64,000 bases of DNA from a virus, in the IMG/VR virus record IMGVR_UViG_3300017963_000253, positions 1-64,000 of that record; one strand, 5' to 3'. The position numbers and the translations under genes were made by a program. Positions 37,083 to 58,847 of the stretch are shown here, one piece after another; the stretch's first letter is position 1; each line of letters opens with the position of its first letter. Under the pieces are notes generated by a model, which saw only the letters and a list, made by a program, of their open reading frames with translations, ran no database searches and was not told the DNA's origin.

Positions 37083-37333
37083 GAGAGGAACTGGAAGAAC
37101 TGAAGCGGGAACCGGAGGAGGAGGACACCGCGCAGCGGAGACCGCGGCGGACGTTCGTCACCCTCCCGGAGGTGGCGGAGGCGAAGGGGATCTCCCGGGT
37201 CGCCGTCCTCTACGCGATCCGGAGCGGGAAGCTCCCGGCCACCCGGATCGAGGGGCGGCGGGAGTGGATGATCCACGTCGAGGACGCGCGGAAGTACCTC
37301 TCCCTCCCCGTCCGCTCCCGCGCCGCGGTCTAA
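37079..37333 (+). CDS. Excisionase/MerR-type helix-turn-helix protein
   Basis: An 84-residue product. The start at ATG 37079 overlaps the primase stop (ATGA). An acidic N-terminal tail precedes an HTH_17-type domain near residues 30-80: F-V-T-L-P-E-V-A-E-A-K-G-I-S-R, A-I-R-S-G-K-L-P-A-T-R, and W-M-I-H-V-E-D-A-R-K-Y-L. Such proteins act as excisionases or small regulators. With the serine recombinase 1.3 kb downstream, an excision-directionality role is possible but unproven. Confidence 0.78.
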   Translation: MREELEELKREPEEEDTAQRRPRRTFVTLPEVAEAKGISRVAVLYAIRSGKLPATRIEGRREWMIHVEDARKYLSLPVRSRAAV

Positions 37334-37335
37334 TC

Positions 37336-37947
37336 GTGGGCCTCTGGGAGTTCGTCAAGCGGCACCGTTGGACGTTCGTCGCCGCCGGGGGCGTCCTCCT
37401 CCTGGCGCTCTCGGGTGTGATCTACGCGCTCGCGGTTCGACCGGGGGACCTCGGGTTTTTGGAGCGGGACGGCGCGGAGCTGAGGTGGGACCGGGCGGAC
37501 GTTCCGGTCCCCTGCTTCTACGCACCGGAGGTTCCGGAGGAGTTCCTTCAGGTCTACGATCGGGTCCGGGAGGAGACCACCCTCCCGGGGGGCGCGCTCC
37601 TCTCCCCCTGTATGCCCTGGAGGCTCGAGACGCGCCCGGAGAGCCCGCGGACGGGCTTCCTCTACCTCCGGACCCTCCCTCCTTCTTCGTGGCCCTACGG
37701 GGCGTCTGAGGGCGTCACGGAGCACGCCTACGATAAGAGGACCGGGCAGATCCTGGGGGCTACGGTCTCCGTCCGCGCGGACCTCGTCACGGACTTCCGC
37801 CTCCCCGTCCTCAGGCACGAGCTGGGGCATTCGTTAGGGCTAGCTCACGACCGGGAGCGGTCCTCTGTGATGCACGAGAATGTCTCCTGGAGGGGTGGGT
37901 TTGGGGATCGGGATCTCGAGGCGCTCCGGAAAGCCTACCTAGAGTAA
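37336..37947 (+). CDS. Membrane-anchored matrixin-like zinc metalloprotease
   Basis: A 203-residue product, GTG start two bases after the preceding stop. Residues about 12-32 form a transmembrane segment (W-T-F-V-A-A-G-G-V-L-L-L-A-L-S), with the N-terminus basic and probably cytoplasmic. Residues 161-172 hold the metzincin zinc motif (H161, E162, H165, H171, D172), followed by a S-V-M-H Met-turn. The core before it (V-R-A-D-L-V) fits the matrixin fold. The target is unknown; it could process a phage or host envelope protein. Confidence 0.78.
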   Translation: MGLWEFVKRHRWTFVAAGGVLLLALSGVIYALAVRPGDLGFLERDGAELRWDRADVPVPCFYAPEVPEEFLQVYDRVREETTLPGGALLSPCMPWRLETRPESPRTGFLYLRTLPPSSWPYGASEGVTEHAYDKRTGQILGATVSVRADLVTDFRLPVLRHELGHSLGLAHDRERSSVMHENVSWRGGFGDRDLEALRKAYLE

Positions 37948-38303: not shown

Positions 38304-38615
38304 ATGGATATCGAAAAGGCGTTGACCCCTTCTGAGACCTGGGACCTGTTGAAGGCCGGGAAGCTCTACATGGACTTCGAGGGCGACGTTCCCCTCCACG
38401 TTTGGAGCGTGGAGAACGACCGCTTCTTCCGTTACCCCGGGGAGCGGGTCTACGTCGAGAGCGAGGACGGGTGGAAGACCCTTTGGGTCAGGCAAAAGGT
38501 GAGGTCGATCTGCAGAGGTGCCAGCGGAGACGGGGTTGTCTTGAACTTCAAAAACCACAACGGAGCCTCCGGGTGGTACCCGTGGCAGAACGTGCGGCTC
38601 GAGGTGGGAAAGTGA
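38304..38615 (+). CDS. Hypothetical small protein
   Basis: A 103-residue product with AAAGGG upstream. It shows W-D-L-L-K-A-G-K near the N-terminus and a compact Trp-rich strand region (VPLHVWSVENDRFFRYPGER). The stop overlaps the GTG of the recombinase. No known domain. Probably co-transcribed with the recombinase. Confidence 0.6.
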   Translation: MDIEKALTPSETWDLLKAGKLYMDFEGDVPLHVWSVENDRFFRYPGERVYVESEDGWKTLWVRQKVRSICRGASGDGVVLNFKNHNGASGWYPWQNVRLEVGK

Positions 38616-39319
38616 AGTATATCGGGTATATACGCGTATCGACGCTAGACCAAGCCCGGACGGGCGTCTCCCTCGCGGACCAGGAGGAGAAGATCCGTCA
38701 GTACGTGGCGCTCGCGGACGGGGAACTCGTGGACGTTATCCAGGACGGGGGGCGGAGCGGGAAGGACCTCGACCGGGAAGGGGTCCAGGAGGCGTTCTCC
38801 CGGGTCCTGAACGGGGAGGCGGACGTCCTAGTGGTCTACGCCATCGACCGCCTCTCTCGTTCCGCTCTGGACCTCCTGCAGCTGGTCTCGAAGCTTAGGG
38901 ACGGGAAGCGGGGGTTCGCTTCCGTCCGGGAGCAGATGGACTCAACTACGCCCCACGGACGGTTCACGATGACGATCCTCGCGGCGGTCGCGGAGATGGA
39001 GCGGGAGATGATTCGCTCCCGCTGCCGCGACGCCTCCGCGCGCTGCGTTCGGGACGGGCGGGTCTGGGGGAAGGTCCCCTTCGGCTACCAGAGGGACCGG
39101 GGTGGGAAGCGCCTGATCGAGGACCCCGTCGAGATGGAGGTCCTCCGCGGGATCCTGTCTCTCCGGGACGCGGGGTACAGCTACGCGAAGATCGCCGCCC
39201 ACCTGAACCGTCGCGGTCGGGGACCGAAGATCGGCGCGCGCTGGTACCCCTCCTCCGTTCGCTCCGTCGTACTGACCCACCAAAAGTACCGCGAGGTTCG
39301 TAGCTTACGAGAGGGTTGA
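38612..39319 (+). CDS. Serine recombinase (resolvase/invertase family)
   Basis: A 235-residue product starting at GTG 38612 (GTGA overlap). Residues 4-20 are I-G-Y-I-R-V-S-T-L-D-Q-A-R with the catalytic Ser at position 10; A-I-D-R-L-S-R follows near 77 and A-E-M-E-R-E near 128, all family motifs. The end has a short recombinase-type helix and an HTH (Y-S-Y-A-K-I-A-A-H-L-N-R). It is larger than Hin (about 190) and much smaller than large serine integrases (over 450). It could invert, resolve or integrate DNA; no obvious att or crossover site is seen. Confidence 0.84.
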   Translation: MKYIGYIRVSTLDQARTGVSLADQEEKIRQYVALADGELVDVIQDGGRSGKDLDREGVQEAFSRVLNGEADVLVVYAIDRLSRSALDLLQLVSKLRDGKRGFASVREQMDSTTPHGRFTMTILAAVAEMEREMIRSRCRDASARCVRDGRVWGKVPFGYQRDRGGKRLIEDPVEMEVLRGILSLRDAGYSYAKIAAHLNRRGRGPKIGARWYPSSVRSVVLTHQKYREVRSLREG

Positions 39320-42628: not shown

Positions 42629-43736
42629 AGTAGAGGAGATCCGGAAGTTGCGACGCCTGATGGGAACCGCTCCAGAGGCGGAGCCTGAGTTCGAGACGAA
42701 GTTCTACCGCGGGGTAGAGGGGATCCGCGTGAAGCTGGTAGATGGACCTCGGAACCCCTACCGGGCGATGTACGCGATGGGGGTCTCTACCTGGGGGCAT
42801 ATTCACTCTTTAGCTACTGACCGTTGGGAGGATACACCGCCGGAGGCCCGGGAGGCGGTAGTCCGGGCGGTCCTAGGGTTTAACGCCCTCCCGCTAGCGA
42901 TGGAGGCCCCGAAGTTTACGTTCGAGGTCTATAACCTTACGCGGTGGAGCTTCGATCAGATCGCCCGCGCGCGGATCGGGGCGGTCTTCGCTTCCCTCGG
43001 GACGCGGGATAACAACCATTTGGGGATCCCCTTCCGGATGCACGAGGCGACTTGGAGGAACGAGTCGAAGCGAGGTCTCTTTGTGGGCAACGCCAAGAAC
43101 GCCAAGGACGCGTACCGGACGTTGGTGGAGAGTGGGAGGGGGAGTTGGCAGGAGGCGCGGACGTTCCTCCCGATCTCGGTGGTCCATCGCTTCACGATGT
43201 CGATCAACTTCCTTGCCCTCCGGGGGATGTGCGCCCGGAGGATGACCTTCTCGGAGGCGGAGGACACTGTTGCGGTGGCGTGGCTCCTTCGAGACCGTTT
43301 GATGAAGGCGGACGCCTACCCGCTTCTCGCCGCCCATCTTCGACCCGCTTGTGACGGCGCGGGGACCTGCCGGTATCACAAGGCTCACACGATTTCAGAG
43401 GCCTTTGGGTGTCTTTTCAAGAGCTGTGGTCGACACCCGGTGAAGAGCGCCCCCGGGAACCCGGATTTCGATTACGAGTATGCGGACTTTAACGTCAGTT
43501 GTTCGGACCGAAAGACGATTCAGGATCAGCTGCAGATTTCGATCCCGGAGCGGACCATGGATCCTGACAAGGTGGAACTTACTTCCCGCGACCGTTTCCT
43601 CTTAGGATTTCAGGCTCAGAATGAGGAGGAGTTTGAAGATTGGAGGTGGTACGCGCAGGCGGAGAGAGGGGTGGATGCAAACCCGTTCCCCCTCCCGGAT
43701 TCCGGGGCTGCAGTTGAACCGGTGGACCTCCCGTGA
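42615..43736 (+). CDS. Divergent ThyX-family protein with Cys-rich C-terminus
   Basis: A 373-residue product starting at ATG 42615 behind GGAGGAG. The ThyX plan is recognisable: K-F-T-F-E-V near residue 108, a helix with F-D-Q-I-A-R-A-R-I-G, and later A-Y-R-T-L-V-E-S-G, A-R-T-F-L-P-I and R-F-T-M-S-I-N. The family signature RHRxxSxNExSxR is changed to R-A-R-I-G-A-V-F-A-S-L-G-T-R, so catalysis on dUMP may differ. After residue 250 come C-D-G-A-G-T-C and then C-L-F-K-S-C-G-R-H, a likely metal site not typical of ThyX (210-260 residues). Possible modified-pyrimidine synthase. Confidence 0.65.
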   Translation: MSHDRVEEIRKLRRLMGTAPEAEPEFETKFYRGVEGIRVKLVDGPRNPYRAMYAMGVSTWGHIHSLATDRWEDTPPEAREAVVRAVLGFNALPLAMEAPKFTFEVYNLTRWSFDQIARARIGAVFASLGTRDNNHLGIPFRMHEATWRNESKRGLFVGNAKNAKDAYRTLVESGRGSWQEARTFLPISVVHRFTMSINFLALRGMCARRMTFSEAEDTVAVAWLLRDRLMKADAYPLLAAHLRPACDGAGTCRYHKAHTISEAFGCLFKSCGRHPVKSAPGNPDFDYEYADFNVSCSDRKTIQDQLQISIPERTMDPDKVELTSRDRFLLGFQAQNEEEFEDWRWYAQAERGVDANPFPLPDSGAAVEPVDLP

Positions 43737-44269: not shown

Positions 44270-45254
44270 CAGTGGGATGCTGGGTCATGTCTTGGACGAG
44301 ACCCTTCGGTCCCTGGGTCACGAGCGGTTGATCCCGAGCGGTCGGAACTGGAAGAGCCCTTCCACCGGGGAGATAGAGCCGGACTTCCGGGACCCTGTAT
44401 ATCTTCGTTGGCTGGAGGGGGCGAACGTGGACGTCTTCTTCCACGCCGGGGCGTTGGTGGGGACGACGCGATGTGAGGCGCACGCGGAGGATGCCTGGAG
44501 CTGCAACGTCGAGGCGGTCCGGAGGATCGCGGATATCCTCTCCCGGCGACGGATCTACACCGTCTTCTACGCCACTGCTGCGGAGATGGAGCCGGGGGAG
44601 TATGGGTTGGACCGGCCTATCGACGTGGGACGGACCCCCCGGAACCCGCTTACCCGTTACGGGATTACGAAGTTGGCGGGGCGGGAGTTGATGGAGGTCC
44701 TTTTCCGGGAGCGTGGTGTGGAGGAACTCCTTCTCCAGGTCTATCCTAGCTTTGGCTTCGGAGGGGCGCGGGACGGGAACTCCTGTGTGGCCGACCTTCT
44801 GAAGTGTGCCCTCGGGGTTTATGACCGCAGACCCTTCCTCCCGCTCGCCCCGGAGAACATCAAGGAGGTCACACCGCACTCCTACATCGCGGAACTTTCC
44901 GTCCGCGCCGCGGAGCGACGTCTCTCTGGGAAGATTCCTATCGCGTCTGGGGTCTGGACCCGTTACGCGGAGATCGTGGAGATGGTCGAGGATGTCACCG
45001 GGGAGAAGTTGGACCCGGAGTGGCGTGCGGACCTGGACTACAAGGGGGACTTCTTACATGTACGGGAGGACGTCTTCTCCTTGGCAGAGGATCTGGGGGT
45101 TCCGGTCCTGACGCGGGTGGAGATCAAAGCGGCTCTCGTGGATGAGATGAACGGGATCCTGAACGCGGAGGGTGCCGGGGTGATGGCGAATCACGAGTGG
45201 CGGTTCGCGGAGAAGCTTGTGGAGGCGTTCCCGGGTTGGGAGGGACGTAGATGA
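44247..45254 (+). CDS. Extended SDR epimerase/dehydratase (RmlD-like)
   Basis: A 335-residue product, ATG 44247 overlapping the kinase gene by 23 bases with GGAGAGG upstream. The N-terminus carries T-G-S-S-G-M-L-G (NAD site), and R-Y-G-I-T-K near 137 holds the Y-x-x-x-K pair. V-F-F-H-A-G-A follows the usual third strand. It matches dTDP-4-dehydrorhamnose-reductase or NDP-sugar epimerase-type proteins. Sugar or nucleotide-sugar processing is implied; whether for a DNA modification or envelope change is unknown. Confidence 0.76.
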   Translation: MRYIVTGSSGMLGHVLDETLRSLGHERLIPSGRNWKSPSTGEIEPDFRDPVYLRWLEGANVDVFFHAGALVGTTRCEAHAEDAWSCNVEAVRRIADILSRRRIYTVFYATAAEMEPGEYGLDRPIDVGRTPRNPLTRYGITKLAGRELMEVLFRERGVEELLLQVYPSFGFGGARDGNSCVADLLKCALGVYDRRPFLPLAPENIKEVTPHSYIAELSVRAAERRLSGKIPIASGVWTRYAEIVEMVEDVTGEKLDPEWRADLDYKGDFLHVREDVFSLAEDLGVPVLTRVEIKAALVDEMNGILNAEGAGVMANHEWRFAEKLVEAFPGWEGRR

Positions 45255-45934
45255 TTAGATATTTGAATAAATTAGTTGAAGTATTGACTAATTTGGATAA
45301 CGAAGAGCGTATTGAGGCTTTGAATTTGGTAAAGACGGAGCTTCATAAAATTTCTCCTTTCAAGGCGGAGCCTGTGGATTGTGTGCTTTGGGAGCGTACT
45401 TCTCGTGTAATTGCTAACGATTACAATCCTAATGCTGTTGCTCCTCCGGAAATGGAGTTACTTCGGATTTCGATAGAGTCGGATGGATTCACCCAACCTG
45501 TTGTGACGGATTTCAGTGACGAGTCTGAGGTGTTTGTGGTGGTGGATGGATTTCACCGTAATCGAGTGGCTCGAGAGTGTGAATCTGTGGTGGATAAGTT
45601 GGGTGGTTACCTTCCGATAGTTCAGATACGTGCTGATCAGAAGGGGCGTTCAGATAGAATTGCTTCGACGATTCGTCACAATCGCGCAAGGGGTAAGCAT
45701 CAAATCGCAAAGATGTCTGATATTGTGATTGAATTGAAGCGGAGAAATTGGTCTGACAAGAAGATAGGTCGTGAACTTGGGATGGATCCTGATGAGGTGT
45801 TGCGATTGGCTCAGATTACTGGGTTAGCAGAAGCGTTTCGGGACAAGGAGTTCACTCGGGCCTGGGAGGCAGATTTGAAGTTGGATGACGAGTTGATCGA
45901 GGGATTGGTCGAAGAGGTCGACTTGGATGAGTAG
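45251..45934 (+). CDS. ParB/Srx-fold protein, IbrB-like
   Basis: A 227-residue product, ATGA overlap with the SDR gene. Residues about 45-125 match the ParB nuclease-type fold (A-V-A-P-P-E-M-E-L-L-R-I-S-I, G-F-T-Q-P-V-V, V-V-V-D-G-F-H-R-N-R-V). A helix-turn-helix near 150-190 follows (ELKRRNWSDKKIGRELGM). IbrB proteins pair with IbrA (PAPS-reductase-like). The DNA is very A+T-rich (38% G+C in a counted 60-base line at 45301), in sharp contrast with neighbours. It is the first gene of a three-gene foreign-looking cassette. Confidence 0.75.
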   Translation: MIRYLNKLVEVLTNLDNEERIEALNLVKTELHKISPFKAEPVDCVLWERTSRVIANDYNPNAVAPPEMELLRISIESDGFTQPVVTDFSDESEVFVVVDGFHRNRVARECESVVDKLGGYLPIVQIRADQKGRSDRIASTIRHNRARGKHQIAKMSDIVIELKRRNWSDKKIGRELGMDPDEVLRLAQITGLAEAFRDKEFTRAWEADLKLDDELIEGLVEEVDLDE

Positions 45935-46343
45935 GTTGGAAACGATAGATTTTGAGAGAGTTCAACCTGGTAGAGTTTACTTTCATTACTTGGATTTGGA
46001 GGAGTATCACGCCGGGTTTTGGAAGTCTGTTTACAATCGGGATATTAAGGCGCGCTTGACTGCTACTTCGGTTAAGATTTTGCGGGATCGGGATATTTTT
46101 AGTGGTGCAGTTCAACGTGTGATAAAGGAGTGGCCAAACTCTTGTCTAGCGGAATTTACTGCTCCTGGAAATCACAGGGCTTGGTTGGGTCAGGCTGCGT
46201 GCTGTCTCGTTGCTGGTGTTCCGGAGAACCTGACTCGGTTAGCGTGGTGGAAGTTAACTGAGGTCCAAAGAATCGCCGCTAACGATATTGCGGAGATTGC
46301 TATTCGAGATTGGAGGATAAGACGTGTTGAAACGAAGACTTGA
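45927..46343 (+). CDS. Unknown protein of the ParB/PAPS-reductase cassette
   Basis: A 138-residue product between the IbrB-like and IbrA-like genes, overlapping both by 8 and 20 bases. It contains a central DIFSGAVQRVIKEWPNSCLAEF stretch and then H-R-A-W-L-G-Q-A-A-C-C-L, with paired Cys. No family is recognised. It shares the low G+C content and close spacing of the flanking genes, so it is part of the module. It could be a partner or immunity factor; function not known. Confidence 0.7.
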   Translation: MSRLETIDFERVQPGRVYFHYLDLEEYHAGFWKSVYNRDIKARLTATSVKILRDRDIFSGAVQRVIKEWPNSCLAEFTAPGNHRAWLGQAACCLVAGVPENLTRLAWWKLTEVQRIAANDIAEIAIRDWRIRRVETKT

Positions 46344-47556
46344 GATCAACGTCTTGGAGGCAGCTCGGGAACGGATAGCGCGGGTTTTCGACGATTTTGA
46401 GAGAATTTATGTGGCGTTTAGTGGGGGTAAGGACTCAACTGTGATGATGCACTTGGCGTGTGAAGAGGCACGCCGTCGGGAGTGTAGAGTTGGGATCTTA
46501 ATGGTGGATTTGGAAGGTTACTTTGAAATCACGGTGAAACACTGCGTTGAAATGTTTGAAATGTACGCGGATGTGATAGAGCCGTTTTGGATTTGTCTTC
46601 CGATTCACCTTCGTAATGCAGTGAGTGTGTTTGAGCCGTTTTGGGTTTGTTGGGATCCTAAAGCAGAAGGGGCTTGGGTTCGACGACCTCCAAAGGAAGC
46701 GATTGTTGATTCAGGGTACTTTCCTTTTTTCCGTGAAGGTATGGAGTTTGAGGAATTTGTGCCGCTATTTGGGGATTGGTACGCAGATGGGAAGCGGTGT
46801 GCGTGTCTTGTGGGTATCCGCACGGACGAGAGTTTGAATCGCTTTCGAACAATTGCGATTTCCCAAAAGGAGAGATTTGAGGGTCTTTCTTGGACGACGA
46901 AGATCACCAAGGATCTCTATAACGTATACCCTATTTACGATTGGTCTGTTGAAGATATTTGGGTATATCACGCGAAGTTTGGAGATAAGCCTCACAATCG
47001 GCTGTACGATTTGATGCACCAAGCGGGTATGACGCCTTCCCAGATGCGAATTTGTCAACCTTATGGAGACGATCAAAGGCGTAACTTGTGGCTATTTCAC
47101 ATTATCGAACCTAAGACTTGGGCCAGGATTGTTGCACGTGTGAATGGTGCTAATGGGGGAGCACTTTATATTCAGGAGTGGGGAAATATTAATGGTTATC
47201 GAAAGATAACTAAACCTGTTGGGCATACTTGGAGAAGTTTCTCAGAACTCCTCGTGGCTTCGATGCCAGAAAAGTCAAAGATTCACTATCGTAACAAGAT
47301 CCTTCTTTTTGAAAAGTGGTGGACAGAGCGTGGTTACCCTGAAGGGATTCCTGATGAGGCGGATCCACGAATGGAGGCTAATCGCAAAGCTCCAAGTTGG
47401 CGGAGAGTATGTAAATCGTTACTTAGAAACGATTATTGGTGTAAGGGACTTGGATTTAGTCAGCAGAAGAGTGCTGCCTACAAGGCTTACTTGGAGTTGA
47501 TGAAGCGGCGGAAGAAATCTTGGGGTGTCAGTGATGTTAAGTTGGGGTTTGTATGA
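46324..47556 (+). CDS. PAPS-reductase-like protein, IbrA/DUF3440 type
   Basis: A 410-residue product, GTG start. S-G-G-K-D-S-T at residues 33-39 is the PP-loop ATP-pyrophosphatase motif, followed by V-M-M-H-L-A. V-G-I-R-T-D-E-S-L-N-R-F-R near 160 and I-Y-D-W-S-V-E-D-I-W-V near 202 match the IbrA/PAPS-reductase family. The C-terminal part (Y-R-N-K-I-L-L-F-E-K-W-W) corresponds to the DUF3440 extension. It may activate a substrate by adenylation and transfer sulfur or act on nucleic acid. The low G+C content continues to its end. Confidence 0.82.
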   Translation: MLKRRLEINVLEAARERIARVFDDFERIYVAFSGGKDSTVMMHLACEEARRRECRVGILMVDLEGYFEITVKHCVEMFEMYADVIEPFWICLPIHLRNAVSVFEPFWVCWDPKAEGAWVRRPPKEAIVDSGYFPFFREGMEFEEFVPLFGDWYADGKRCACLVGIRTDESLNRFRTIAISQKERFEGLSWTTKITKDLYNVYPIYDWSVEDIWVYHAKFGDKPHNRLYDLMHQAGMTPSQMRICQPYGDDQRRNLWLFHIIEPKTWARIVARVNGANGGALYIQEWGNINGYRKITKPVGHTWRSFSELLVASMPEKSKIHYRNKILLFEKWWTERGYPEGIPDEADPRMEANRKAPSWRRVCKSLLRNDYWCKGLGFSQQKSAAYKAYLELMKRRKKSWGVSDVKLGFV

Positions 47557-50480: not shown

Positions 50481-51076
50481 AGCGCGCAAGGACCAAGAAG
50501 CTCAGCTCTAAGGCGGCGCTGGAGGAGCACCAGAAGCGGGGGGAGCGGTTCGGCTTCCTCCGGCAGCGACTCGCCCGGGTGGACGTGGAGGAGGTCTGGG
50601 AGACCCTGGAGGAGGCCCTCTCCCTGGGGGAGGGGCGGGGGAACGCGGAGCGGATCCTCCGGGCGCTGGATACGACGGAGGCCAACCTCCGGCGGGCCGG
50701 GATGCTCCTCCAGGTCGCGATCGAGGAGCTGGACGAGTTCGACATCCACTGGAGGGCCGCTTACGCGGAGTGGTCCCGGCACGCGCGGGACGCGCTGGAG
50801 CGGGACAAGAAGGAGAAGCGGATGTCCGGTCAGATCACCACGGAGGTGATCGAGAACTGGATCGCGGAGAACCTCCCGGACTACACCCAGTGGAGGCGCG
50901 CTCGCCGGGACCTGGAGCGCAACCGGAACTTGATGAAGCACATGTTCGCCGCGTGGGAGTTCCGCTCCGCCTCTCTTCGGAAGCAGGCGGATCTGGTGGA
51001 GCGGAGACGCGGCGTGGACACTAATATGCTGCCCCGGAGGGGCGAGAGCAAAGGAGAACGACGTGGGACTGAGTAA
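50477..51076 (+). CDS. Coiled-coil protein, possible recombination mediator
   Basis: A 199-residue helical product, ATG overlapping the polymerase stop. Residues 120-180 (TTEVIENWIAENLPDYTQW, then R-R-A-R-R-D-L-E-R-N-R-N-L-M) have the rhythm of UvsY-like mediators and related phage proteins found beside RecA-type genes. The two downstream genes are a gp32-like candidate and a UvsX-like recombinase, an order consistent with the mediator idea. No proof from motifs. The next start lies inside its last 14 bases. Confidence 0.55.
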   Translation: MKRARTKKLSSKAALEEHQKRGERFGFLRQRLARVDVEEVWETLEEALSLGEGRGNAERILRALDTTEANLRRAGMLLQVAIEELDEFDIHWRAAYAEWSRHARDALERDKKEKRMSGQITTEVIENWIAENLPDYTQWRRARRDLERNRNLMKHMFAAWEFRSASLRKQADLVERRRGVDTNMLPRRGESKGERRGTE

Positions 51077-52472
51077 AGAGCAGCGCCTGGAGCGGGCGCG
51101 GAAGCGGCACGAGCAGCTCCGGAAGGCGACCAAGACCCGGGGTCTGACGGACCGGATGGACTGGAAGCCGAAGTCGAAGATCGTCCTTCACCCGGATTCA
51201 GACATCGTGGACCGACTCCGCGTCTGGTTCCCCGTCCTCCTGGAGGACGACGAGGAGAAGGAGGAGAAGCGCGGGAAGAAGGGGAAGAAGGGGAAGAAGG
51301 GGAAGAAGAAGCGGAAGAGCAACGTGGTTAACATCCCCTTCAACGTCCCGGACGACCCGGCGCTATGCCCGTTCACTCAACTCCGGGAGAAGCTGGAGGA
51401 GGACGAGGAGATCGACGAGGAGGATACGGTCATCTCCGTTGGGAGCGGGCGGGACAAGGTCGAACTCTGCAAGGGGGAGATCCTCGCCTGGGACGGGTAC
51501 GACTTCCGGAAGAGTTTGAAGCCCCAAGCGGACTTCGTCACCGTTGCCGTGAAGATCGAGGACGCCAAGAAGAATCGCCCGGATACTCTGAAGGCGGAGA
51601 CGCTCGCCGCCGCCAAGTCCCTTGGGAACGAGATCCGGAAGGAGATCGAGAGCGAGGTGGACGAGGGCGGAGAGGAGGCGTCCCCGTTCTTCGTTCCGTA
51701 CCCGTTTCTGATCAAGTTTGATGAGGCGGAGCGCGGGTCTGACATGTACTCCGCGCGGGCGATGTCGAATAAGGTCTCCGAGGTAGAGGAGGACGTGGAA
51801 CTCCAGGAGATCCTGAACGCGGAGCCTCCTTCTCTGGAGTCCGAGTTGGAGTTGGCGGACCTCGAGAAGTGCGTGGAGATGATCAACGATGCCATCGTGA
51901 TAGATGGACTCTCCGTGGAGCTGAAGGGGGAGGGTCGGAAGCGCCGCAAGAAGAAGCAGGAAGAGCAGGAGCAGGAGGAGGAAGAGCCGAAGGAGGAGGA
52001 GGTCGAGGAATCGGAGAAAGAGGAACCGGAGGAGGAAGAGCAGGAGCAGGAGGAGGAAGAACCGGAGGAGGACGAGGAGGAAGAGCAGGAGCAGGAGGAG
52101 GAAGAGCCGAAGGAGGAAGAGGAGGACGAGGTAGCGCGAGCGGAGAGGATGCTTGCGGAGGCTAAGGCAAAGAAGGAGGCCAAGGCAAAGAAGGAGGCCA
52201 AGGCAAAGAAGGAGGCCAAGGCAAAGAAGGACTCCGAGGCAAAGAAGGACTCCGAGGAGAAGCCGAAGAAGACCGCGAAGCGGAAAAAGAAGGTCGAGAA
52301 GAAGAAGGTCGAGAAGAAGGAGGACGGGGAGGAACTTGGTTGGGAGCCGGGGGAGGATGAGGATTTCGACATCTGTCCTAAGTGCCGGAAGAAGGTCCCT
52401 ACGGACGCGATGGAGTGCCCTCACCCCACCTGTGATGCCGTCTACGCCCCGGAAGATGGGGACCCGTTCTAG
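51063..52472 (+). CDS. gp32-like ssDNA-binding protein candidate with repeats
   Basis: A 469-residue product, GTG start. Residues about 28-270 look like the structured core (DWKPKSKIVLHPDSDIVDRL, then N-I-P-F-N-V-P-D, then L-C-K-G-E-I-L-A-W, P-F-F-V-P-Y-P-F). Residues about 300-365 are almost only Glu, Gln, Pro and Lys in E-Q-E-Q-E-E-E-E-P repeats, then come A-K-A-K-K-E repeats to 400. A zinc ribbon (C-P-K-C ... C-P-H-P-T-C) closes the chain. Acidic tails are common in ssDNA-binding proteins; the assignment is tentative. Confidence 0.55.
   Translation: MGLSKEQRLERARKRHEQLRKATKTRGLTDRMDWKPKSKIVLHPDSDIVDRLRVWFPVLLEDDEEKEEKRGKKGKKGKKGKKKRKSNVVNIPFNVPDDPALCPFTQLREKLEEDEEIDEEDTVISVGSGRDKVELCKGEILAWDGYDFRKSLKPQADFVTVAVKIEDAKKNRPDTLKAETLAAAKSLGNEIRKEIESEVDEGGEEASPFFVPYPFLIKFDEAERGSDMYSARAMSNKVSEVEEDVELQEILNAEPPSLESELELADLEKCVEMINDAIVIDGLSVELKGEGRKRRKKKQEEQEQEEEEPKEEEVEESEKEEPEEEEQEQEEEEPEEDEEEEQEQEEEEPKEEEEDEVARAERMLAEAKAKKEAKAKKEAKAKKEAKAKKDSEAKKDSEEKPKKTAKRKKKVEKKKVEKKEDGEELGWEPGEDEDFDICPKCRKKVPTDAMECPHPTCDAVYAPEDGDPF
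51944..52260 (+). repeat. Low-complexity tandem repeats in ssDNA-binding candidate
   Basis: Two arrays: GAGCAGGAGCAGGAGGAGGA-type Glu/Gln repeats (about 51955-52130) and a 15-18-base unit containing GGCAAAGAAGGAGGCCAA repeated four or more times (about 52165-52240). Each preserves the reading frame, so the number of copies could change without breaking the gene. Confidence 0.7.
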
Positions 52473-57600: not shown

Positions 57601-57993
57601 ATGGACGCTTCTGTGAATAAGGTCATTTTGATCGGGCGGCTGGGAACGGACCCGGAACTCCGGTACTTTGACTCCGGGAAGGCGCTCTGTAACTTCTCCC
57701 TGGCGACTAACCGGAGTTGGAAGGACCGAAACGGGGAGAGTCAGGAGCGGACGGACTGGCACCGTATCGTAACCTGGTCGCGACTTGCGGAGAACTGCTC
57801 CAAGTACCTGGAGAAGGGAAGGAAGGTCTTCGTGGAGGGGCGTCTGGAGACCCGGAACTGGGAGGACGAGGAGGGGAAGCGTCACTACATCACGGAGGTG
57901 GTGGCGAGCAATGTACTCTTTCTCGGCGGCGGGAGCGTTAACGAGGGACCTCCTCCGACGCAGGAGGAATTGGACGAGGACCTTCCCTTTTGA
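57601..57993 (+). CDS. ssb: Single-stranded DNA-binding protein
   Basis: A 130-residue OB-fold SSB. Residues 5-110 contain the family pattern: [26 protein letters not shown], then W-H-R-I-V and [10 protein letters not shown]. The C-terminus ends in D-E-D-L-P-F, the conserved acidic tip that recruits partner proteins. The length is short but typical for phage SSBs. The MTase gene begins in the stop codon region. It coats ssDNA during replication and repair. Confidence 0.94.
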
Positions 57994-58847
57994 GACTGAA
58001 GCAATCCATTTGCCCGGGGTACGTTTGGGAGGACCCGGAGGGTCTGCACCTGATCGCTTGCGGGGACTTCCGGGACCCGGGCCTGCTTCGCGGGCTCCTG
58101 AAGCGGTTCGGGGAGGAGGAGTTCCAACTCACGCTCGCGGATCCTCCCTACGCGGTGGCATCGGAGAAGCAGCGGATCCAGTTGGAGGGGCGTAAGGACC
58201 AGTTCCTGACGGAGAAGTGGGACCTCCTGACACCGGAGGAACTGAGAGACCTCCTCGTTCGTCTGTGTCTGGAGGTCACGCGGGTTACTCCCGCCGGGAA
58301 CGTCTGGATCTGGACCTCCGACTGGTACGTCTCGGAGCTGAAGTGGGAGCTGAAGCGTCTCGGACTCCGGGTCTGGCCCACCTACGTCTGGTGCAAGTCC
58401 AACCCACCTTGGCAGGTCCGGAAGTCGAACCCCGCCTCCGCCTGCGAGTTCCTGGTGATGGCCAGCAAGAAGGGGAACTATTTTGAACTAGACGCCCTCC
58501 CGAAGCAGCGAAACTGGTTCGTTGCCTCCGCGTCCGGGGAGTTGGATTACTCCCCTGCGGTCTCCCCCTACTGGGTGGAGCGCCCGGTGGTTCACGCCGC
58601 GGAGCGCCTCCGGAAGGTGGGGGAGAAGGAGTTCCTGAATCGCGCCCAGAAGCCGCTAGACGTGACGGAGGCCCTTGTTCGCGCCGGGTGTCCGGAGGGT
58701 GGTTTGCTCCTGGACCTCTGCGGGGGGACCGGAACAGGGTTACTCGCAGCGGAGCGGACGGGTCGCCGCTGCGTCTACGTGGAGAAGGACCCAACGCAGG
58801 TGCGGGCGGCGGGACGCCGCCTCCTGGAGGAGCGGAGGAATGGTTAA
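57990..58847 (+). CDS. DNA methyltransferase (N6-adenine/N4-cytosine class)
   Basis: A 285-residue product with a TTG start overlapping the SSB stop (TTGA). L-A-D-P-P-Y near residue 48 is the catalytic D-P-P-Y motif, followed by a target-recognition-like middle, and D-L-C-G-G-T-G-T-G near 235 is the AdoMet motif. This motif order (catalytic before AdoMet) is that of beta-class methyltransferases. No cognate restriction gene is seen, so it may be an orphan used for self-protection. The target sequence is unknown. Confidence 0.86.

Follow-up and report, generated by a model that had tools for sequence, protein, structure and literature searches.

An unnamed helical protein accompanies IbrA and IbrB in a widespread phage variant of the pair

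Introduction

Two gene pairs of Escherichia coli, IbrA/IbrB and the chromosomal YbdN/YbdM, are the described systems closest to a three-gene cassette that we analyse here in 64,000 nucleotides of viral DNA, positions 1 to 64,000 of the 75,133-base IMG/VR record IMGVR_UViG_3300017963_000253 (hereafter the window). Like the cassette, both pairs consist of homologous IbrA and IbrB genes that adjoin and overlap, and they share with it the PP-loop, DGFHR and HNRARG motifs. They differ in that enterobacterial pairs, and those carried by plasmids, lack the gene that precedes IbrA in the window, which we call Mid. They differ also in setting, the E. coli pairs lying in islands or in the ybdO-ybdNM-ybdL locus and the cassette in a phage early operon. 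The open-licence papers in PMC give these proteins as names only: IbrA/IbrB, DUF3440 and ybdNM appear as annotation mentions, with no biochemistry and no third component, which agrees with an earlier sequence-only reading of the window that credited such pairs with no settled biochemistry. IbrA/B are mentioned in phage FCL-2 (PMC4541368) and in glacial viruses (PMC4490671), and ybdNM is repressed by CitR (PMC9068703).

Two better-described families invite comparison. DndC/SspD with DndB, like the cassette, combines a PP-loop protein with a ParB-superfamily partner; the cassette departs from that system in having no Fe-S cysteines, in scoring far under the DndC cut-off, and in lacking DndD, DndE and restriction genes. 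CysH, the 3′-phosphoadenosine 5′-phosphosulfate (PAPS) reductase, has the same fold as IbrA, which also passes the generic Pfam domain, but IbrA has no ECGxH motif, carries an extra DUF3440 region, falls under the cut-offs of CysH models, and keeps other genomic partners.

Results

The cassette and its relatives

The window record is that of a tailed phage, with tail-type and replication genes present. The cassette comprises the following features.

45251..45934, + strand: IbrB-like ParB/sulfiredoxin-fold protein with a helix-turn-helix (HTH)-type C-terminal half; 227 aa; motifs VDGFHR and HNRARG
45927..46343, + strand: Mid, an all-helical orphan protein, obligate IbrA neighbour in phages; 138 aa
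46324..47556, + strand: IbrA-like PP-loop ATPase-fold protein with DUF3440, short type; 410 aa, GTG start
46405..46449, + strand: S-G-G-K-D-S-T PP-loop region of IbrA, residues 28-42; conservation from 191 homologues
47281..47524, + strand: IbrA C-terminal tail module, residues about 320-400; found as a separate gene beside Mid in phages with long-type IbrA

In the open reading frame (ORF) map the three genes overlap one another by 8 and 20 bp, just as the sequence-only reading had placed them, and family matches support its identification of an IbrB-X-IbrA cassette. An IbrB-type ParB protein adjoins IbrA at this locus, as in other IbrA/IbrB systems; the two-gene organisation of the E. coli type is not present here, Mid lying between the two.

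The window IbrA found 495 relatives in an IMG/VR scan, and Mid was present in 74 of the best 80 loci, a sample biased towards near relatives. The reverse search was seeded by a DNA motif of Mid alone, a single-sequence Mid scan being too narrow (2 loci). It returned 69 loci, all encoding Mid; IbrA adjoins in 69/69, which rules out Mid as a chance ORF, and IbrB in 65/69, the four loci without IbrB including contig ends and one locus, L213, described below. Three gene orders were met, ParB-Mid-IbrA (36 loci), Mid-IbrA-ParB (23) and IbrA-ParB-Mid (6), and on the IbrA tree the position of ParB shifts about 11 times among Mid-bearing loci while adjacency is kept. Mid usually overlaps the start of IbrA, by between a few bases and a few dozen. 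At the level of gene content and order, these loci show Mid, IbrA and IbrB to be a conserved unit whose members rearrange yet stay adjacent, and the sequence-only reading, which had staked its interpretation on finding the three genes together elsewhere, is upheld on this point by many other viral loci.

Outside viruses the picture differs. In cellular genomes, where the order is IbrA-IbrB, Mid was present in 4/80 loci, of which two or more lie on very short contigs. One Mid query against 72,556 plasmid records found no Mid; IbrA occurs in 651 of those records, and the IbrA/IbrB pair in 1913 of 5426 complete E. coli genomes. Four isolated phages carry IbrB, Mid and IbrA together as the window does: Pseudomonas phage Amjad_SA, Microcystis phage Mwe-JY13, Mycobacterium phage Gaia and Pseudoalteromonas phage XCL1123. 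Their Mid is annotated as hypothetical or ParB-like only, and Gaia and XCL1123 are unlike the window in having a long-type IbrA and, following Mid, a separate gene for the tail. With the window Mid as query, most IbrAs of other isolated phages had no Mid match. In the Streptococcus, Lactobacillus and Flavobacterium phages that we inspected, Mid was absent by profile also, and an SNF2-type helicase lies upstream.

With this helicase the family has another three-gene arrangement (L137, L167, L168, L169). In bacterial genomes and the Streptococcus and Lactobacillus phages, IbrA is the next gene downstream of the helicase; in the Flavobacterium phage the helicase precedes IbrB-IbrA. Where a short-type IbrA lacks Mid (L057, L077, L087, L088, L090, L091; L249:571-948), the upstream slot often holds another small family, phrog_26647-like and with the motif KKDYxxANxxGSRGVY; from gene position, the alternation of this family with Mid suggests that the partner subunits of IbrA are exchangeable. 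A 114-kb viral contig (L213:6-4881) has Mid-IbrA with no IbrB nearby. It also carries another, divergent IbrA, and the same run of genes encodes an N6/N4 DNA methylase.

Mid and the IbrA tail

Mid is a previously unnamed all-helical protein. It matched no family in Pfam, PHROGs, NCBIfam, PADLOC or PDB sequences, and 61 members scanned against Pfam and PHROGs gave stray single matches only. Its AlphaFold2 (AF2) model is a seven-helix domain (predicted local distance difference test, pLDDT, 93.7; predicted template modelling score, pTM, 0.86), for which Foldseek found no PDB match (best E 3.9). The names that Foldseek proposed, AhpD-like and 14-3-3, were rejected as chance level (E 3.9 or more, template modelling (TM) score <0.3 over the query), and the fold search gave one viral match at 32% identity, probably the XCL1123 homologue. 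Of the loci most closely related to the window cassette, L003 (L003:5225-6008) has two tandem Mid genes, and in L002 (L002:2451-3801) a second Mid copy keeps only about the first 36 residues and runs on as an NGQHR-motif protein that is not in Pfam.

Homologues of the IbrA tail (profile positions about 320-400) occur in phages as separate genes of 81-107 aa, and all of them (36/36) directly follow and overlap Mid; no stand-alone tail without Mid was found. IbrA itself falls into short and long types, split by one change on the tree. A separate tail accompanies none of the 82 short IbrAs with Mid and is found beside long IbrA with Mid in 23/23 phage loci, plus 1/2 cellular loci; L223, an apparent exception, was set aside, its IbrA being cut by the contig end. 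Every distinct stand-alone tail (25/25) scores best against the tail of the short, Mid-partnered IbrA. The mean scores are 72 bits against that tail, 51 against short IbrA without Mid, and 36 and 24 against the long types, the lowest, 24 bits, being that against the tail of the long Mid-partnered IbrA.

As far as sequence comparison can take the matter, these distributions show Mid to be tied to IbrA and to one type of IbrA C-terminal tail. Most simply read, they mean that Mid needs the short-type tail, be it in cis or in trans, and binds it. Mid probably docks on the IbrA tail, and a docking or accessory subunit is a better fit than the immunity part that had been suggested for the middle gene; the special role that the same suggestion gave this gene does stand, tied to IbrA.

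The IbrA and IbrB-like proteins

The third gene had been read as a PP-loop protein with S-G-G-K-D-S-T and a DUF3440-type tail, and it is both. It matches PF11922 (DUF3440; 2.5e-33, 115.8 bits against a cut-off of 25), PF01507 (PAPS_reduct; 5e-12, 46.6 bits against 22.5) and phrog_2302 (4.6e-85), and is about 46% identical to PhiR5_2 IbrA. The AF2 model has the PP-loop fold on which the sequence-only reading depended (pLDDT 82.7; the tail is less certain). Its best Foldseek matches in the PDB are CysH, adenosine 5′-phosphosulfate reductases, CysD and FAD synthase; CysH is best by E-value, and the top target-normalised TM scores among the listed matches are those of FAD synthase (0.66) and CysD (0.64), two PAPS-fold adenylyltransferases that resemble IbrA in fold but show weak sequence similarity and act on unrelated substrates.

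Across 191 IbrA homologues the residues that are at least 97% conserved are SxGKDS of the PP-loop (S33, G35, K36, D37 and S38 being at least 97% identical), D62, E64, R166, E169, S170, R173, YDW and N369-D370. IbrA has the PP-loop and R-x-x-E-S motifs as well as the PP-loop fold. No cysteine reaches 97% in this set, the best being C373 at 88%, and the closest relatives of the window protein, L002 and L003 (72% identity), have Gly at that position. The family thus lacks the conserved Fe-S cysteine of DndC. The ECGxH motif of CysH occurs in 0/191 homologues; a true CysH, run as a control, carries it (KRECGLH). Model scores are correspondingly low: 15.6 bits against a cut-off of 254.2 for NCBIfam PAPS_reductase, and 23.3 against 290.4 for NCBIfam DndC. 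In PADLOC, IbrB and Mid had no match and IbrA had weak DndC/BrxP PP-loop matches only (DndC, 5.7e-9). By its sequence, then, IbrA is shown to have a PP-loop fold with neither the CysH nor the DndC cysteine signature. The missing invariant cysteine, the missing ECGxH and scores so far under the cut-offs argue against both PAPS reduction and DndC-like Fe-S sulfuration, and we infer that adenylation chemistry fits IbrA better than either. CysD and FAD synthase perform activation chemistry and use no catalytic cysteine for it.

The Pfam PAPS_reduct cut-off is passed by each of the 16 phage records with IbrA that were tested and is therefore the probable origin of the "cysH" label on phage IbrA genes. 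Among 50,697 phage records, the window IbrA query matches 196 and a true CysH query 7, a count that comes from one query with partial cover of CysH diversity and is an indication rather than a census. Two of the seven hold the genuine enzyme at high identity, one of these two being a 691-kb bacterial contig, and some of the seven look like bacterial contigs. These figures indicate that phage "PAPS reductase" genes are mostly of the IbrA family.

The assignment of the first gene to a ParB-fold/HTH protein also holds, from its match to phrog_2159 (1.1e-63) and the match of its family profile to ParB 4umk (5.8e-5). Its alignment has invariant columns DYNPN, DGFHR and HNRARG. The annotated genes near the cassette do not include ParA, although no search was aimed at ParA or parS.

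Operon setting and base composition

The cassette is part of a polycistronic early operon of a tailed phage. Its outer genes are joined by 4-bp ATGA overlaps to an epimerase-like gene upstream and to PolB downstream, the IbrB-like gene starting inside the final codons of the former and PolB inside the final codons of IbrA, and the surrounding replication operon includes ThyX, dTMP kinase, dUTPase-like and PolB genes.

The three genes have G+C contents of 45.5, 46.6 and 46.1% against a window mean of 62.7% and make up the lowest-G+C 2.3 kb of the window. Their G+C at third codon positions (GC3) is 0.44-0.46, compared with 0.83+/-0.08 in 36 other window genes (about -5 standard deviations). The marked drop noted in the sequence-only reading is therefore real, but its size, 38 against about 70%, was overstated: the true contrast is about 46 against 63, and 38% is seen only in single 60-base lines. 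The low-G+C stretch has no sharp edges, the dTMP-kinase gene at 43733 having a GC3 of 0.51 and the first third of PolB a GC3 of about 0.6. In 63 related viral cassettes the difference from their own flanks is just -2.2+/-3.7 points, which rules out low G+C as an inherent trait of the cassette. Since related cassettes match their flanks, the anomaly is particular to the window phage and points to recent acquisition, and the foreign origin first proposed on base composition gains from a strong deviation seen in this phage only. On compositional grounds, the window phage probably obtained the cassette recently from a lower-G+C source. We found no flanking genes common to the window and its relatives, which fits a mobile cassette.

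Elsewhere in the window are an N6/N4 DNA methylase (57990-58847; PF01555, 9.5e-15), encoded by the same phage as the cassette, and a protein in the replication region with a long repetitive Glu/Lys-rich segment (51063-52472). A serine recombinase (38402-39319; Resolvase, 1.5e-33) makes a temperate or formerly temperate lifestyle possible. A matrixin-like metalloprotease (37264-37947; PF00413, 3.8e-6), which looks membrane-anchored and includes HELGHSLGLAHD, is unusual in a phage.

Discussion

The cassette is real and widespread in phages, a form of the known IbrA/IbrB system that has the previously unnamed Mid as its third subunit. Tentatively, and with somewhat more doubt than assurance, we read it as a phage version of the IbrA/IbrB (YbdN/YbdM) pair with Mid as an added subunit, forming an adenylating complex that modifies nucleic acid. 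IbrA would activate its substrate by adenylation, through AMP transfer or an activation that releases pyrophosphate, as its fold relatives CysD and FAD synthase do, and would not reduce PAPS. IbrB, with its ParB/sulfiredoxin fold, DGFHR nucleotide-site motif and HTH, would bind DNA and a nucleoside triphosphate (NTP) and bring the complex to nucleic acid. Mid would dock on the IbrA tail, in cis where IbrA includes the tail and in trans where a separate gene encodes it, and may adjust the activity or target choice of IbrA. Co-expressed with replication genes, the complex would most likely act early in infection to modify nucleic acid of the phage or the host.

Viral cassettes have varied neighbours (185 genes falling into 133 clusters); among those of known kind, helicases, exonucleases, annealing proteins, DNA methylases, single-stranded DNA-binding proteins, replication initiators and recombination genes are frequent. 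These neighbours and the ParB-fold partner are why we favour nucleic acid as the target. Several observations weigh on the other side. The idea of a DNA target draws on the ParB fold, the HTH-like region, analogy and the kinds of neighbouring gene, and none of these proves it; the IbrB-like protein scores 13.1 bits against Pfam ParB_N, under the cut-off of 26.3, and so fails to qualify as a canonical ParB partition protein. C373 is common enough in the family that a cysteine may have a role in part of it. E. coli loci and many plasmids have IbrA-IbrB without a third gene. Finally, one or two changes on the IbrA tree suffice to explain the switch of the tail from cis to trans, so the link between Mid and the tail rests on few independent events.

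The use of sulfur by IbrA would take one of two forms. An enzyme acting like DndC, TtcA or ThiI, with IbrB as a DndB-like partner, would sulfurate DNA or RNA, as the sequence-only reading had proposed. Membership of the PP-loop superfamily, the weak DndC matches, the thiolases TtuA and NcsA among the Foldseek matches, and the ParB-superfamily partner of the Dnd systems (PMC11662687, PMC12839542) all speak for this view. Yet C280 of DndC is an indispensable [4Fe-4S] ligand (PMC11662687), and IbrA has no invariant cysteine, even its best candidate being glycine in the closest relatives; no cysteine desulfurase, DndD or DndE recurs among the cassette neighbours, and we reject IbrA, whose score is far under the cut-off, as a member of the DndC family. 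The sulfuration claim is not supported, and we keep it as a quite improbable rival. The other form is an auxiliary metabolic gene, a CysH aiding sulfur assimilation during infection, such as viromics papers report from phages (e.g., PMC10914622, PMC11041744). The Pfam domain and the top fold match by E-value point that way, but the CysH motif is missing throughout, the specific models score far too low, and sulfate assimilation gives no reason for IbrA to be linked to IbrB and Mid in replication regions; we reject IbrA as a plain PAPS reductase and regard this role as very improbable indeed.

In E. coli, ibrAB has been linked to immunoglobulin-binding proteins, and depositors' notes and E. coli annotation speak of a "co-activator of prophage gene expression." Such a role, in which IbrB binds DNA and IbrA assists in switching phage or host genes, would suit the HTH-like half of IbrB. 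A pure regulator, however, would not need an invariant PP-loop active site, nor would one expect to meet it so widely in unrelated phages next to replication genes, and we think transcriptional co-activation unlikely. We are equally doubtful of an anti-phage or counter-defence module that leaves no lasting modification of nucleic acid and acts by superinfection exclusion, inhibition of host defences or AMPylation of a host protein. The scattered, mobile distribution across phages, plasmids and E. coli genomes, and the exchangeable partner genes (Mid, the SNF2 helicase and the KKDY-GSRGVY family), would fit such a module, but the defence libraries recognise neither IbrB nor Mid.

A more far-reaching version of the adenylating, nucleic-acid-modifying complex can be put forward as a speculation that we consider unlikely. 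In it a PP-loop enzyme, an NTPase of ParB fold that targets DNA, and interchangeable adaptors, with Mid seated on a portable tail domain, might modify nucleic acid by adenylation and not by sulfur; the complex would account for most phage "cysH" genes and would shield phage DNA from host defences by a modification not yet described.

Whatever its chemistry, IbrA/IbrB (YbdN/YbdM) is a very common pair, present in E. coli, on plasmids and in many phages. Enzymes of this type are routinely mistaken for genes of sulfur metabolism, and claims that phage cysH boosts sulfate assimilation need re-checking. Mid and its link to the IbrA tail offer an experimental handle, a specific protein-protein interaction of which nature supplies both cis and trans versions.

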